The notes beneath the pieces were generated by a model. That model searched no databases. It had not been told where the DNA came from and saw only the letters and a program-made list of their open reading frames with translations. Of a DNA stretch of 34,854 bases, positions 26,580-33,899 are shown piece after piece. Source of the DNA: a virus; the IMG/VR virus record IMGVR_UViG_3300034093_003673, positions 1 to 34,854 of that record. The stretch is one strand, 5' to 3'. Position numbers and translations under genes: made by a program. Numbering within the stretch: the stretch's first letter is position 1; the number at the start of each line of letters is the position of its first letter.

Positions 26580-27008
26580 ATGTCATGGACTTATCAAACT
26601 TTACCAGTAGAAACTTTACCCGAAGATTGTATAGGTTTTGTGTATCTAATCACCAACATGACTACCGGACGCATGTACATAGGTAAAAAACTAGCTAAAT
26701 TCTCCAAGACTACACAACGAACAGTCAAACTCAAAAACGGCACCAAGAAGAAAAAAAAGATTCGAACAAAAGTGGACAGCGATTGGCGCGACTACTATGG
26801 TAGTAGCCCAGAACTTACCAAAGATGTTGAATTGTTAGGCAAAGATAACTTCTCTCGTGAAATATTGTATTATTGCAAATCCAAATCAGAATGCAGTTAT
26901 ATTGAGGCTCGCGAACAATTTTCAAGACGAGTGCTGGAAAGCAAAGACTATTATAACGGACACATACAAGTTCGTGTACATGGCTCCCACATAATCAACA
27001 AACTCTGA
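26580..27008 (+). CDS. GIY-YIG-like nuclease domain protein
   Basis: This 142-aa protein carries a GIY-YIG-like pattern, GFVYLITNMTTGRMYIGKK (19-37), followed by a lysine-rich insert (GTKKKKKIRTK), VDSDWRDYYGSS and a central GKDNFSREILYYCKSKSE segment in which Arg and Glu are candidate catalytic residues. Related small proteins occur in many aquatic T4-like phages, annotated as putative endonucleases. Whether it is a homing enzyme or a phage DNA-processing nuclease cannot be decided: no intron or recognisable insertion border is visible. It is the last gene of the plus-strand operon and is followed by the 472-bp non-coding region. The start gives MSWTYQTLPVE, which matches the family's usual N-terminus. 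Confidence 0.78.
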   Translation: MSWTYQTLPVETLPEDCIGFVYLITNMTTGRMYIGKKLAKFSKTTQRTVKLKNGTKKKKKIRTKVDSDWRDYYGSSPELTKDVELLGKDNFSREILYYCKSKSECSYIEAREQFSRRVLESKDYYNGHIQVRVHGSHIINKL

Positions 27009-27463: not shown

Positions 27464-27482
27464 AGATGTACGAAGTACATCT
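27464..27482 (-). terminator. Hairpin at the end of the minus-strand accessory operon
   Basis: AGATGTAC and GTACATCT form a perfect 8-bp stem with a 3-nt loop. It overlaps the stop codon of the DUF6165-like gene (27481-27483). A second hairpin (27439-27463) follows directly on the minus strand. The lack of a clear T-run makes a strong intrinsic terminator uncertain; an RNA-protecting or bidirectional role is possible. Confidence 0.45.
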
Positions 27483-27855
27483 AATATATCTTCTCTTCAA
27501 TTATAGTGCTGTTGCAAATTATGTTAATTTGCCTTTTGATACTTGCACGTAAGTCGTTTTTGATGTACACTGATCTTGCTAGTTCAATAAATTCATCATC
27601 AAATCTTTGTTCACGTTCATGCTGCCGTTTACGATCTTCAATGTCCCATAGTTCACTGTTGACTTTGTGTAGTTGTTCACCTAATTCAGTAATGTCATCT
27701 GGTAACTGCAAGGTCTGGGCTTGATACATCAACAGATCTACTTCCCGTTTAATGTTTGCCTGGCTTTCGGGAGTTTTTGCATGCTGATGTTTGATGGCCA
27801 GTATAGTAAGTTTGTCAATCAACTCACCAATGCTTACTGGCACATTAACTATCAT
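27481..27855 (-). CDS. DUF6165-like protein
   Basis: This product of about 124 aa begins MIVNVPVSIGELIDKLTILA and contains LHKVNSELWDIEDRKRQHE and DDEFIELARSVYIKNDLRAS, then a C-terminal IEEKIY. This pattern matches the family I know as DUF6165, small mostly helical proteins found in bacteria, often near sugar or polysaccharide genes, and in aquatic phages. Function is unknown. I chose the ATG at 27855 because it overlaps the upstream stop as ATGA and starts right at the conserved segment; an ATG at 27873 would add six residues (MARSKS). It is the last gene of the minus-strand accessory set and its stop codon lies in a hairpin. Confidence 0.78.
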   Translation of the reverse strand: MIVNVPVSIGELIDKLTILAIKHQHAKTPESQANIKREVDLLMYQAQTLQLPDDITELGEQLHKVNSELWDIEDRKRQHEREQRFDDEFIELARSVYIKNDLRASIKRQINIICNSTIIEEKIY

Positions 27856-28187
27856 AGATTTTGATCTGGCCAATCTCTAAACAAGGCATGCTGAATGTTA
27901 CCGGACACAAATTGATTGAAGCTTTTGTGTTTGACTTCTAACTCGCCTTCTAGTGGTGCCACACGTCGGAATGCCGAATCCATCTGTGCCATGTCACGGA
28001 ACTCCATGATGATCATCCACTCCGGCATGGCAGCAATGCTACGAAAACCCATCTTGCATCTAGTGATGCGATAGTCTTCCATCCGGCCTTCTGACTTCAG
28101 ATGATCAAAAAAGCTCTTCATTCCGTTGACCCAGTCTAGGTCAGAGATGTCGCCTTCTTTGTCTGCCCAAATTGTATATAAATCCAT
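27852..28187 (-). CDS. DUF6614-like protein
   Basis: This 111-aa protein reads MDLYTIWADKEGDISDLDWV, then MEDYRITRCKMGFRSIAAMP, EWMIIMEFRDMAQMDSAFRR and a C-terminal QHALFRDWPDQ. The pattern resembles the DUF6614 family, small dimeric alpha/beta-barrel (ferredoxin-like) proteins of unknown function seen in marine bacteria. The family assignment is from memory of the pattern. It lies 2 bp after the GNAT-like gene and overlaps the DUF6165-like gene by 4 bp, so the three are one translational unit. Confidence 0.7.
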   Translation of the reverse strand: MDLYTIWADKEGDISDLDWVNGMKSFFDHLKSEGRMEDYRITRCKMGFRSIAAMPEWMIIMEFRDMAQMDSAFRRVAPLEGELEVKHKSFNQFVSGNIQHALFRDWPDQNL

Positions 28188-29131: not shown

Positions 29132-29308
29132 TTAAAAGTACGGTAGTCCAGTTTTTTTGGTAGTTTCTAAATTCTCTTTGACTAGATCGCTGATCAACAA
29201 GCGTTCATTGAGTGAGAGATTCATGCCTTCAGAATATGTCAGCCCACCACGCATGTACCAACACATTTTTAACACTTCGGCCCGAATACCTTTGGCCTCC
29301 TTTTCCAT
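29132..29308 (-). CDS. Short MRGG-motif protein; likely the frameshift extension of the gp26-type gene
   Basis: From ATG 29308 this frame gives 58 aa: MEKEAKGIRAEVLKMCWYMR and GGLTYSEGMNLSLNERLLI, ending TKKTGLPYF. Small proteins with CWYMRGG and a KKTGLPxF ending occur beside the gp26 gene of aquatic T4-like phages, where they are annotated as baseplate hub or tail assembly factors. The frame is open for 20 codons upstream of this ATG (SEQIVKSIERM reads as genuine coding sequence) up to a stop within the gp26-type gene, and none of these is ATG, GTG or TTG. That open segment meets the gp26-type frame at the T TTT TTC heptamer. The more likely product is therefore a gp26-MRGG fusion of about 350 aa. 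Confidence 0.72.
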   Translation of the reverse strand: MEKEAKGIRAEVLKMCWYMRGGLTYSEGMNLSLNERLLISDLVKENLETTKKTGLPYF

Positions 29309-29346
29309 GCGCTCTATAGATTTTACAATCTGTTCAGAATTTTGGA

Positions 29347-30183
29347 CTAGGAGGCGGCTCCGAAAAAATTAGACATGTCCAAGGTAAACGGTTGTGCGTA
29401 TTCATGTGAGCAGTTGTTGCACTTGACGTTGATGGGTTGTAATTCACCTTGCTGTTTGTTTTCAATTATGGTGTCTCTAATTTTTACAAAAGTATTGCGA
29501 TCGCAATTGCTGAGCCATTCGTTGATTTGATCCTGATCACTGACTCGAGCAGTTGGTGTTGCCACTAATCCAATATTTTGTGCCAGAGCTTGAGTGGTAA
29601 TTGTGGTGATTTTTTTCAACACTTCGGTGAGATTATTGAGTTTTTCACTGTCAGTGACATCACTGGCCTGCAACATTTGTAGAGTTTTTTGTTCTTCAAA
29701 TTGAGTCATGCTATTATCGTTCATTTGCTTGTAACTCATGGGACGGAAGAATATTTCAAGGTCCCCCAGTCTCAAACTTTGACTGTAGTTTGGTGGTTTG
29801 ATGTTGTCTATGGCAATGCGCAAGTCAATGCCATAGTCGTTCTCGGTGGTACATGACGGACAAGAGCTGGTGATATCAAGTTCATGTCCATAGGTGGCAA
29901 TTCTTATTGCCAGCAATATTGTGTCAATGTCCATGCCAGGAATATGCCAGGCGTTTTTGATGTTTGGTATACAGCTTTGAATCACTGATATCACAGCAGT
30001 TCCGTTAAACAAGGAATCTGGGGTACGATAAGTGATTTCATCCAGTGTGGTCATAGGCAACACTGGATACTCTCCATTTTCTGTAAGATCTATACTGCCA
30101 GTGGGATAAAACTTGCCCTGGCTGGGTAATCTAATATAGATGGCGGGTTGTCTGAAATATTGACTCAGTGGGTTGGGATTCAT
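29347..30183 (-). CDS. 26: Baseplate hub assembly protein, gp26-like (T4_baseplate family)
   Basis: This 278-aa protein matches the T4_baseplate family pattern: RLPSQGKFYPTGSIDLTENG (18-37), PMTTLDEITYRTPDSLFNGT (43-62), VIQSCIPNIKNAWHIPGMDI (67-86) and LLAIRIATYGHELDI. Cysteine pairs CPSC (108-111) and CNNC (255-258) look like a zinc ribbon. T4 gp26 (208 aa) takes part in baseplate hub assembly. The start codon lies 36 bp downstream of a perfect TATAAATA late promoter. The C-terminus reads SNFFGAAS; the Asn-Phe-Phe codons contain the heptamer T TTT TTC, in the correct frame for -1 slippage into the next gene. Confidence 0.88.
   Translation of the reverse strand: MNPNPLSQYFRQPAIYIRLPSQGKFYPTGSIDLTENGEYPVLPMTTLDEITYRTPDSLFNGTAVISVIQSCIPNIKNAWHIPGMDIDTILLAIRIATYGHELDITSSCPSCTTENDYGIDLRIAIDNIKPPNYSQSLRLGDLEIFFRPMSYKQMNDNSMTQFEEQKTLQMLQASDVTDSEKLNNLTEVLKKITTITTQALAQNIGLVATPTARVSDQDQINEWLSNCDRNTFVKIRDTIIENKQQGELQPINVKCNNCSHEYAQPFTLDMSNFFGAAS
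29362..29368 (-). other. Putative -1 ribosomal frameshift site (T TTT TTC)
   Basis: On the minus strand the codons AAT TTT TTC contain an X XXY YYZ slippery heptamer, U UUU UUC, four codons before the stop of the gp26-type gene. Slipping -1 continues as CGG AGC CGC CTC CTA GTC and so on, directly into the MRGG frame. The predicted fusion is 274 residues of gp26, 18 bridging residues and 58 residues of the MRGG protein. Confidence 0.65.
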
Positions 30184-30239: not shown

Positions 30240-33200
30240 ATGGATCAACAATTACAAGATCTAATTGATCAAATGCGGGACCTAGTAAAGGTACTAAAAG
30301 TCACCAGCGGAACCCCCACTACCAGCCAGGGCAAAACTGGTGCAGATTCATCTGGGCAGAATGTCACCAAGCTGATCAACGCTCTTGGGCAACTGGCAGT
30401 AAAACTAGACGGTACCCGGCGCACAAGAGCCGAAGAAATGCAGGCCATGAAACGGTTTGCAGCCAATGTTAATCGAGCCACCACAGCACAAGATGCGCAA
30501 GCTGACGCAATTGCTAAAAACATACAAAAAACCAAAGATGAAGCGGCAGCCCGTGCCGAAGCATCTAGGATTGCCATGCTCAGTGCCAAGGACCTGGCTG
30601 CCGAGCAATTGGCTGCACAACAACGGGCTGAACAAGATCAGAAAAAAGCCAGAAACAATTCCTTGTCCGACGCCATAAATGCTCAGCGTCGAAGCACCAG
30701 CACAAGTCGTCAAGTGTTTGATGAAATGAGCATGGCTGGTAGCAGTGCTGATTTACTCAAAAATAAATTTTTAGATCTTGGTGGTGATAGTTTAAAAGCA
30801 CAAGCTGGGCTACAATTATTTGTTGCTGGCATTGAAGGCGTTACTAAATCACTGACAACCTACAGTACTGCACTATACAAAGGTGAGCGCGGCGCCGCAG
30901 TATCCGCCAAAGCACTGAACGATCTTGCAACTCCAATACTTGGTGTAATTGATACCTTGGGCACAATTATTAGTATTGGCAGTTTCTTTTTACCTGGTGG
31001 AACTTTTGTCAAAGTCTTTATGAAAGGTTTGGCTGTTGCCGGCGGAGGACTATTAAGTCTAGGCGCCAATGCCGCCAAGCTTGCTCTTAAATTTAATACC
31101 ATTGCTGCCGAGCAGGCTGACAAGTTGTTCAAGAGTTTCAACGAACTCAGCACAGTGGGTGCCGCTGGTGCTGAAGGCATGGACGGTGTGTTTACCATGC
31201 TTCAAACCATGGGCATGTCAGCGGCTGAGATTGAAGAGTTCAACAAACTAATTGTCAGCAGTGGTGGAAAATTAGCCTTGATGGGCACCACTGCTGCCGA
31301 AGGTGCAAAAGAATTCAGCGCAGTTGCTGGAGGATTGTACAAGAGTGATCTAGGACGCCAGCTTGAAATGTTGGGCATAAACGCTGGCGAACAGCGAGAA
31401 GCTGCCTTGGCTTACATGAATATTCAAGCTCGAACCGGGCAAATGCAGTTGAAGAGCACTAGACAACTAATTGAAGAGTCGGCTAAGTTTGCCAAAGAAT
31501 TGGACTTGTCTGCACAGTTAACCGGACAAACAAGAAAAGAACAACAGGCAGCACGTGAAGCTGCCATGGCAGAAACACGATTCCGTGCGGCATTGATTGA
31601 TGCTGAACAACGTGGTGATCAAGATGAAATGGCCCGCTTGCAACAAGCCCAACGCATGGCAGCCATTGCCAAGGGCATGGGCGACGAGCGTGGCTTTACT
31701 GGCATTTTACAAGCCGCTGCCGGTGGCGGAGCACTAGCAACGCCAGAAGCAGTGGCCGCAGAAATGACCTACGGGGTCAATCAGATATTAAGTCAACCCA
31801 ATCTCACTGATGCTCAAATGTTACAGCAAATGGGTGCAAGTGTAAAGTTACAAGAAGGACAACTGGCCGGGATCAACAAGTTTATTGGTGGCATTGATGT
31901 ATTACAAACCAATCTTGTTGCTGGTAACGATCTCCAACGACGTGCTGTGTTATTATCTGAAGGAGCGGCCAAGGCAGGATTTACTGGACCAGATGCAATT
32001 ACCAAGTTTTTAGAAACTGAACAAGGTAAACGTATTGCTGCCGGTGGTGATACCAAACTTATGGTTGAAGCTGGCCGTGCACAACAAGGTGCGGCCATGA
32101 CCATGGACAGTGTGGTCAAAACTTTTAACGGTGCAGCCAACATACATGAAACAGCAGCCAAATCATTCAACGATGCTGTTAATCTGTTTGCAAAAACAGT
32201 GGGTGCACAGCCAGTAGCTGGCGGAATTCCAACCACAAACGCACCTCTACTGCCACCAGAAGCTCCGGCAATTCAGCAAGCCACCGTGGTTGCAAAAGAA
32301 ACAAGAGAACTAGCAAACACAGTAGCAGAGCAGGCAGCAGCCGCTGGTGACGCTGTCAAAGAAGCTGAAAAAGCATTAGAAACTGCTAAAAAATCCAATG
32401 CAACCAAGGAAGAACAAGCTAAGGTTGAGCAACGAATTCTTGACGCAAAAAAAGAACAAGAGCGACTTGAACAAGAAGAAATTCGTGCAGCCAGAGAAGC
32501 ACGACAGCGAGAACTTGAAGCTAAAAATGCTCGTCGTGAACAGCGTCGAACTGAAAACGCAGCCAAAGCGACAGGTCAAGCAGCACCAGCTGGATCTCCA
32601 AATGCTGGAATGCCACCGGCACCTGGCGCCACTGGACAAACAGCACCATCACGAAGTGGCGCAGGAGCTCAAGGTGCAGCCACTGCGCCAGTTGGTGCAA
32701 AGGTACAAGAGAAACCTATAGCCACAGTGCTGGCTGCCGGACCAGGGTTTACCACGGTAGCAACAACAGACAATGACAAACAACAAAGAAAAGGCGCAAG
32801 AAATTGGCGCAACAACAATCCTGGTAATCTAGAATTTGGTGATTTTGCAAAGAGCATGGGTGCAGTTGGTACTGACGGAAGATTTGCTGTATTTCCAGAC
32901 ATGCAAGCTGGCATGCGAGCCAAAGAAGAACTGTTGTTTGGTGCAAGATCAAAATATGTTAATTTAAGTATTGCTGATGCTATTTCTAGGTATGCACCAC
33001 CAATTGAAAACAACACTGATGCTTATATCAAAGCAGTAACGGCAGCAACCACAGCAACTCGAGACACAACATTAAATTCATTAAATGCAACACAACGTTC
33101 GGCATTCTTAGAAGCCATAAACAGACAAGAAGGATTCCGACCAGGCGATGTATTGCAAGCAGCTGAAGGTGGTATTTTAAAATCACAGCCAGGTGGTACA

Positions 33201-33899
33201 CTAGTTAACGCTGCCGAAGTTGGAGTAAACGAAGCATTTGTGCCACTACCAAAAGGCAAGAAGATTCCTGTAGATTTTGGTAGAAATACTGAAAAGATAT
33301 TCAGAGACATCTCAGATATCTTACGTGGAACATCCAATTCAACAATTCCTCAACAGCAAGCATATTCTAATATTACACCGCTAATTAGCAGTATTGGCGA
33401 TGCCAACAAAGCAACAATTTCTCAGTTGTATTCAGATATTGCTTCTTTGATCAGTGGTATCAGTGACACTAACAAAGCAACAACTACTCAAGCATATTCA
33501 GACATTACATCAATGATTGGTGGAATTGGTGATGCAAACAAAACATCTACCACTCAGGCATATTCAGATATCACATCTTTGATCAATGGCATCAGTGATA
33601 ATTTGGTTGTGGCCGGACCAACAACTACATCAACTACTTCATTGGGTAACGGTAAAGATAATATCAAAAATCTTAAAGACATGTCTCCGGAATCTCTGTT
33701 GTCGCCAAATTTTGATGTTAAAATTCTGGCCACAGCAATCGCTAGCGAAATAAAATCTGCACTACGAGAAACAGCTACCAACAATCAGCCACAGGATATT
33801 AATTCTGGTGTAATAGTTGATGCTATCAATGAAATGGTCAGGGAACAACGTACCACCAACACCATCAGTCAGCGAATACTACAGGTATCGCAAGCCTAA
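30240..33899 (+). CDS. Tail tape-measure protein with an embedded lytic-type domain
   Basis: This 1219-aa protein has the make-up of a tape measure: long Ala/Gln/Lys/Glu helices (1-150 and about 680-790), a hydrophobic segment IISIGSFFLPGGTFVKVFMK with GLAVAGGGLLSLGA near 240-275, and a second helical region around 400-500. Residues 853-945 form a separate domain opening with RNNNPGN (857-863), then GRFAVFPDMQAGMRAKEELL and RYAPPIENNTDAYI, a pattern of phage muralytic or peptidoglycan-binding domains. It is followed by AEGGILKSQPGGTLVNAAEV and FVPLPKGKKIPVDF, which is typical of phage tail length proteins. Four 22-residue repeats lie near the C-terminus. It corresponds functionally to T4 gp29 (590 aa), although direct homology is not proven. 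Confidence 0.85.
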   Translation: MDQQLQDLIDQMRDLVKVLKVTSGTPTTSQGKTGADSSGQNVTKLINALGQLAVKLDGTRRTRAEEMQAMKRFAANVNRATTAQDAQADAIAKNIQKTKDEAAARAEASRIAMLSAKDLAAEQLAAQQRAEQDQKKARNNSLSDAINAQRRSTSTSRQVFDEMSMAGSSADLLKNKFLDLGGDSLKAQAGLQLFVAGIEGVTKSLTTYSTALYKGERGAAVSAKALNDLATPILGVIDTLGTIISIGSFFLPGGTFVKVFMKGLAVAGGGLLSLGANAAKLALKFNTIAAEQADKLFKSFNELSTVGAAGAEGMDGVFTMLQTMGMSAAEIEEFNKLIVSSGGKLALMGTTAAEGAKEFSAVAGGLYKSDLGRQLEMLGINAGEQREAALAYMNIQARTGQMQLKSTRQLIEESAKFAKELDLSAQLTGQTRKEQQAAREAAMAETRFRAALIDAEQRGDQDEMARLQQAQRMAAIAKGMGDERGFTGILQAAAGGGALATPEAVAAEMTYGVNQILSQPNLTDAQMLQQMGASVKLQEGQLAGINKFIGGIDVLQTNLVAGNDLQRRAVLLSEGAAKAGFTGPDAITKFLETEQGKRIAAGGDTKLMVEAGRAQQGAAMTMDSVVKTFNGAANIHETAAKSFNDAVNLFAKTVGAQPVAGGIPTTNAPLLPPEAPAIQQATVVAKETRELANTVAEQAAAAGDAVKEAEKALETAKKSNATKEEQAKVEQRILDAKKEQERLEQEEIRAAREARQRELEAKNARREQRRTENAAKATGQAAPAGSPNAGMPPAPGATGQTAPSRSGAGAQGAATAPVGAKVQEKPIATVLAAGPGFTTVATTDNDKQQRKGARNWRNNNPGNLEFGDFAKSMGAVGTDGRFAVFPDMQAGMRAKEELLFGARSKYVNLSIADAISRYAPPIENNTDAYIKAVTAATTATRDTTLNSLNATQRSAFLEAINRQEGFRPGDVLQAAEGGILKSQPGGTLVNAAEVGVNEAFVPLPKGKKIPVDFGRNTEKIFRDISDILRGTSNSTIPQQQAYSNITPLISSIGDANKATISQLYSDIASLISGISDTNKATTTQAYSDITSMIGGIGDANKTSTTQAYSDITSLINGISDNLVVAGPTTTSTTSLGNGKDNIKNLKDMSPESLLSPNFDVKILATAIASEIKSALRETATNNQPQDINSGVIVDAINEMVREQRTTNTISQRILQVSQA
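33363..33602 (+). repeat. 66-bp tandem repeats in the tape-measure gene
   Basis: Copies start at 33363, 33429, 33495 and 33561, exactly 66 bp apart and in frame; the fourth is partial. Each encodes a 22-residue unit of the form YSDITSLIxGIxDANKATTTQA. The copies differ at many codon positions, so the repeat is old or under protein-level selection. A helical repeat at the end of the tape measure is likely. Confidence 0.88.

Follow-up and report, generated by a model that had tools for sequence, protein, structure and literature searches.

In phage lambda, a small tail gene yields a minor long form (gpG/gpGT) through a −1 slip close to its 3′ end. Among T4-like phages, frameshifting is reported to be conserved in several groups, with T4 itself using genes 26 and 51. 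Tail assembly chaperone genes of T4-like phages have been identified (Vladimirov, Gautam and Davidson, 2022, Virology 566:9-15). Later papers refer to poly-T slip sites and frameshifting in these genes and, for certain T4-like phages, to a short and a fused gene that are separate. Moreover, the tail assembly chaperone locus of the Vandenendeviridae and Andersonviridae (phage Adele) has a −1 frameshift with a poly-T site and a conserved extension. The locus described here lies in a 34,854-base virus record (the window), apparently a fragment. It resembles lambda gpG/gpGT in the position of the predicted slip and in a predicted minor long form, with a different slip heptamer. It is like the Adele locus in its predicted −1 slip at a poly-T site with a conserved extension, but that locus belongs to another phage family and carries the motif GTTTTT. 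With the T4-like chaperones of 2022 it shares the gp26 family (PF12322), a short and a predicted long form and poly-T slip sites, whereas the clade of the window is uncultivated and related to jumbo phages. The probable frameshift of the window is a new member of an already known kind, and any novelty would lie in how widely it occurs in jumbo phages and in its stimulators; the statement of an earlier note on this DNA that it knew of no such description for the gp26 locus of T4-like phages is overtaken by the 2022 paper and the papers that cite it.

Our analysis indicates that the locus very probably uses −1 programmed ribosomal frameshifting to make the long form of a tail assembly chaperone in a T4-related contractile-tailed phage, itself probably a jumbo phage (Table 1). 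The gp26-type open reading frame (ORF) matches PF12322 T4_baseplate, the gp26 family, at 65.1 bits (cut-off 24.5; E 9.7e-18), and PHROG 150 (baseplate hub), and its 3′ end reads AAT TTT TTC GGA GCC GCC TCC TAG on the minus strand. The frames are as the earlier note had described them: a U UUU UUC heptamer stands in phase near the 3′ end of the gene, the −1 frame is closed by a TAA (29371-29369) just 5′ of it and then stays open until the TAA ending at 29132, and no ATG, GTG or TTG precedes the internal Met at 29308. This −1 frame reads FFRSRLLVQNSEQIVKSIERMEKEAKGIRAEVLKMCWYMRGGLTYSEGMNLSLNERLLISDLVKENLETTKKTGLPYF and continues for 76 codons after the Phe pair before its TAA, giving a predicted fusion product of 274 + 76 = 350 aa (about 350 in the note) beside an unshifted product of 278 aa. 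The 58-aa ORF that begins at the internal Met is probably just the 3′ part of the extension. AF2 models, with alignments built from the window and IMG/VR rows only, gave a pLDDT of 87.9 for gp26 and an all-helical extension with a mean pLDDT of 92 and a predicted helix at 11-40. Elsewhere in the window, the surroundings of the locus include a GIY-YIG protein with kinship to SegE homing endonucleases (26580-27008), two small ORFs match DUF6165 and DUF6614, domains of unknown function (27481-28187), and two ORFs among phage genes (21634-25967) carry cysteine motifs that, judged by eye, are suggestive of radical SAM enzymes.

Table 1. Features of the frameshift locus, with positions in the window
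Feature	Position	Strand	Basis
gp26-type gene, zero frame, short form (TAC-N), 278 aa	30183-29347	minus	PF12322, PHROG 150, AF2 model
Slip site T_TTT_TTC, in zero-frame phase	29368-29362	minus	sequence; invariant in 248/248 IMG/VR relatives
Zero-frame stop TAG, 4 codons 3′ of slip site	29349-29347	minus	sequence
−1 frame extension, C-domain of predicted long form	29361-29132	minus	open frame; conservation; all-helical model
5′ arm GCCTCCT of putative stimulatory stem	29355-29349	minus	window fold z, stem statistics
3′ arm AGGAGGC of putative stimulatory stem	29301-29295	minus	window fold z, stem statistics
58-aa ORF from internal ATG ("MRGG protein" as a gene caller would annotate it)	29308-29132	minus	sequence
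1219-aa ORF, candidate tape measure protein, divergent	30240-33899	plus	layout only

Cyanophages S-SSM7 and S-RIM8, which encode gp26 and a small "gp51", are like the window in having a homologous gp26 (99.1%), an identical in-phase heptamer and a −1 extension that starts FFR. They differ in an extension of 59-70 codons, in a zero-frame stop one codon after TTC and in an upstream Shine-Dalgarno-like element, and profile comparison of the window-type and cyanophage extensions gave no detectable homology (probability 4%). T4 is like the window in its gp26 family protein and in gp51, which by alignment combines a gp26-like domain with an extension, and unlike it in having no slip site and in placing the short and long forms on two separate genes. 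Specifically, T4 gp26 has neither extension nor slip site, gene 25 coming next, while residues about 1-198 of T4-type gp51 align with gp26 proteins (96.7% and 98.5%) and residues 198-249 with the cyanophage extension (93.3%, E 2.7e-7). The two matches join exactly where the slip-site Phe falls, so that by alignment T4 gp51 is a gp26-like domain and extension in one frame, and T4 carries the short and long forms as the paralogous genes 26 and 51. The window does not show this split arrangement: its extension sits in the −1 frame behind gp26, and the scanned ORFs, which cover part of a genome only, included no further one recognisable as gp26-like.

The homology to T4 also bears on what the two forms do. 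A 2010 review counts gp26 and gp51 among the chaperones of hub assembly and describes gp51 as essential but of unknown function, and the GenBank record of AM101 names gp26 and gp51 tape measure protein assembly chaperones; the gene of the window, presented by the earlier note as a baseplate part, is better called a tail (baseplate hub) assembly chaperone. Frameshifting could be real and both forms nonetheless structural parts of the baseplate hub, as might be argued from the genetic work cited in the 2010 review, which puts gp26 in the hub, and from fold searches of the PDB, in which neither the gp26 nor the extension model matched a solved structure, solved chaperones included. We consider this unlikely, given that the two-form design with a slip near the 3′ end resembles the lambda chaperones, that the T4-like genes have been published as tail assembly chaperones, and that gp51 is absent from the T4 virion according to the same review.

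The case for frameshifting as such is carried by the conservation of the slip site and of the extension behind it. T_TTT_TTC stands in phase in all 248 IMG/VR relatives from viral metagenomes, including all 168 that were fetched by gp26 alone (queries: the gp26 of the window and a cyanophage gp26), a procedure that avoids selecting for the extension and in which the heptamer always lies within 75 nt of the gp26 stop. Together with the window and named phages, these relatives reduce to 149 lineages below 80% identity. In the codon 5′ of the Phe pair the first two bases vary and the third is always T, about two-thirds of the Phe codons elsewhere in the gp26 genes of the relatives are TTT, and Phe-Phe pairs elsewhere in the same genes are written T_TTT_TTC in only 3 of 39 cases (window-type) and 0 of 61 (cyanophage-type). 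Because the phase of the heptamer is invariant while other Phe-Phe pairs seldom take this form, the heptamer is kept by nucleotide-level selection beyond amino-acid conservation. The zero-frame stop follows four codons past the slip site in 84 of 99 window-type lineages. Moreover, a search with the extension alone returned 484 encoding stretches, the best 80 of which all match from residue 1, the slip-site Phe, and all carry the in-phase heptamer; homology of the extension in the relatives thus begins at this Phe and runs onward. A sequencing error or pseudogene is ruled out by this conservation. Some bacterial and archaeal MAGs also include contigs with this phage locus, probably through viral contamination, and six such loci likewise carry the in-phase slip site.

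These data also weigh on the explanation in which the small protein is an independent gene whose translation is coupled to that of gp26 and begins at ATG 29308 (58 aa) or at some non-canonical codon, with the heptamer incidental. An independent start does occur in sister lineages, as in Vibrio phage SD25 (Ackermannviridae, near 1419), where gp26 and the small next gene share a TAATG stop/start overlap without a slip site, and several GenBank records annotate a separate ORF. Relatives of this kind, with their own start and no slip site, had been named in the earlier note as what would speak against frameshifting, and they were found only in other lineages (the SD25 overlap; T4 gene 51), with none in the clade of the window. 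The first ATG of the extension is scattered over codons 3-38 in the relatives, its position not conserved, both conservation and the predicted helix span the internal Met at codon 21, and an independent gene leaves the invariant phase of T_TTT_TTC unexplained, so that we regard this explanation as very improbable. A minor internal start within the extension may nevertheless exist: by raw count, a start codon preceded by a loose Shine-Dalgarno match falls among the first 35 extension codons in 42 of 99 window-type lineages. Transcriptional rather than ribosomal slippage on the run of six T, yielding a fused message, is scarcely credible, since polymerase slippage usually requires longer runs and no codon phase, whereas the run here, with rare exceptions, has a length of six T, and it keeps to the heptamer phase and ends in C throughout.

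Beyond the slip site, the RNA that follows it points to −1 frameshifting. Folding 3′ of the slip site exceeds that of synonymous-codon controls that keep the protein, with a mean z of −1.71 ± 0.13 over 99 window-type lineages and of −1.71 ± 0.21 over 49 cyanophage-type lineages, and the window itself gives a fold z of −2.82 against dinucleotide shuffles. In the window clade, GCCTCCT pairs with AGGAGGC, for which some lineages use instead a copy lying about 21 nt farther 3′. Of 89 lineages, 50 have a perfect 7-bp stem at one or other of these sites, compared with 32.8 ± 2.4 (maximum 40, 1000 trials) when halves are swapped between lineages, a null that yields no formal probability, the lineages being related. 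The arms co-vary, GCCTCTT tending to accompany AAGAGGC, and where Glu codons fall at the pairing positions they are more often GAG (36/80 and 42/69, against 79/351 elsewhere in the extension). A consensus fold of the 89 window-type sequences returned no common structure because the 3′ arm sits at two positions, and it was the per-sequence and synonymous-shuffle tests that revealed the stem signal it had missed. A downstream stem appears, on this comparative evidence, to be favoured beyond what the protein requires, with co-variation, and its role as a stimulator is putative. In cyanophage-type gp26 genes, a strong Shine-Dalgarno-like element lies a few bases 5′ of the heptamer (mean duplex energy about −6.6 kcal/mol) and recalls the stimulator of dnaX, and only a weak signal of this sort occurs upstream in the window type. 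Overall, the −1 frameshift and the parallel with tail assembly chaperones that the earlier note proposed are strongly supported by the comparison with relatives, in which it had suggested looking for a conserved heptamer and a downstream stem-loop: the slip site is invariant, the extension starts from it, and the stem arms co-vary.

The arrangement extends to many named phages. The same slip site with an open −1 extension was found in Atu_ph07, Phosso, Cassandra and PAC2 (PA5oct-like), SCTP-2, 121Q, RaK2 and Serratia BF, a set in which Atu_ph07, 121Q, RaK2 and the PA5oct-like phages represent jumbo phages, as well as in S-SSM7, S-RIM8, a KVP40-like Vibrio phage, a CC2-like Aeromonas phage and Vibrio 2.275.O. 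A tblastn search of the extension against named phages recovered only Atu_ph07 and Phosso, and reading of the frames revealed extensions in the other frameshift-type phages looked at despite these misses. In database records the extension may stand as an ORF of its own, be labelled a small gp51 or go unannotated. Xanthomonas phage XacN1 (near 1680), with T_TTT_TTT followed by A, provides the single variant seen among frameshift-type loci. In a 484-kb uncultured phage (LR756508.1, 225722-228271), a distant gp26 relative without the heptamer is followed by an extension-like +1 frame, perhaps reached by a +1 shift, perhaps belonging to a gene of its own. Furthermore, a BFVD search with the gp26 fold of the window matched larger uncharacterised jumbo-phage proteins (about 400-550 aa), for example in Erwinia Special G and in Ralstonia RSL1 and RSF1, a lead to unrecognised chaperones in those jumbo phages.

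Computation established the slip site with its phase and its conservation, the extension, the bias towards a stem, and homology with gp26 and gp51 of T4; it is from these, together with analogy, that we infer slipping, its efficiency and the chaperone roles, as well as binding and the ratio of products. In the mechanism we consider most likely, the majority of ribosomes would end at the zero-frame TAG and release the short form, while a minority would slip −1 on T_TTT_TTC, both Phe tRNAs shifting to pair in the −1 frame with the aid of an RNA stem starting 6 nt 3′ of the slip site. The slipped ribosomes would produce the long form with its helical C-terminal domain. If lambda gpG/gpGT is the guide, coating of the tape measure protein would fall to the short form and recruitment of tail subunits to the few long forms. 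The 1219-aa ORF is a candidate for this tape measure protein by layout: it stands head-to-head with the gp26-type gene on the opposite strand, as in RaK2, whose head-to-head neighbour is noted as similar to tape measure protein, and its sequence similarity to that neighbour is insignificant (E 0.05).

Taken across lineages, the comparison lends itself to a broader reading, to which we give roughly even chances, that the gp26 lineage of jumbo and marine phages holds a frozen slip site whose RNA stimulator has been repeatedly replaced, and that other lineages obtain their two-form chaperone through stop/start coupling or from a duplicate gene in fused form, making a natural series for the loss of frameshifting. 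On this reading, the 5′ arm of the window clade would stay fixed as GCCTCCT while its 3′ arm takes either of two places in the extension, a compact hairpin would serve in some relatives, and cyanophages would have added the Shine-Dalgarno-like element. The evidence on stimulators and the wide survey of jumbo phages may go beyond earlier work, and they provide a large comparative set with candidate stimulators for the tail assembly chaperones of the T4 superfamily. The findings correct an annotation error that recurs in metagenomic contigs and in the genomes of jumbo phages and cyanophages, in which one frameshifted gene appears with a hypothetical protein, a small "gp51" or nothing behind it, and they support reading T4 gp51 as a hard-wired long form.
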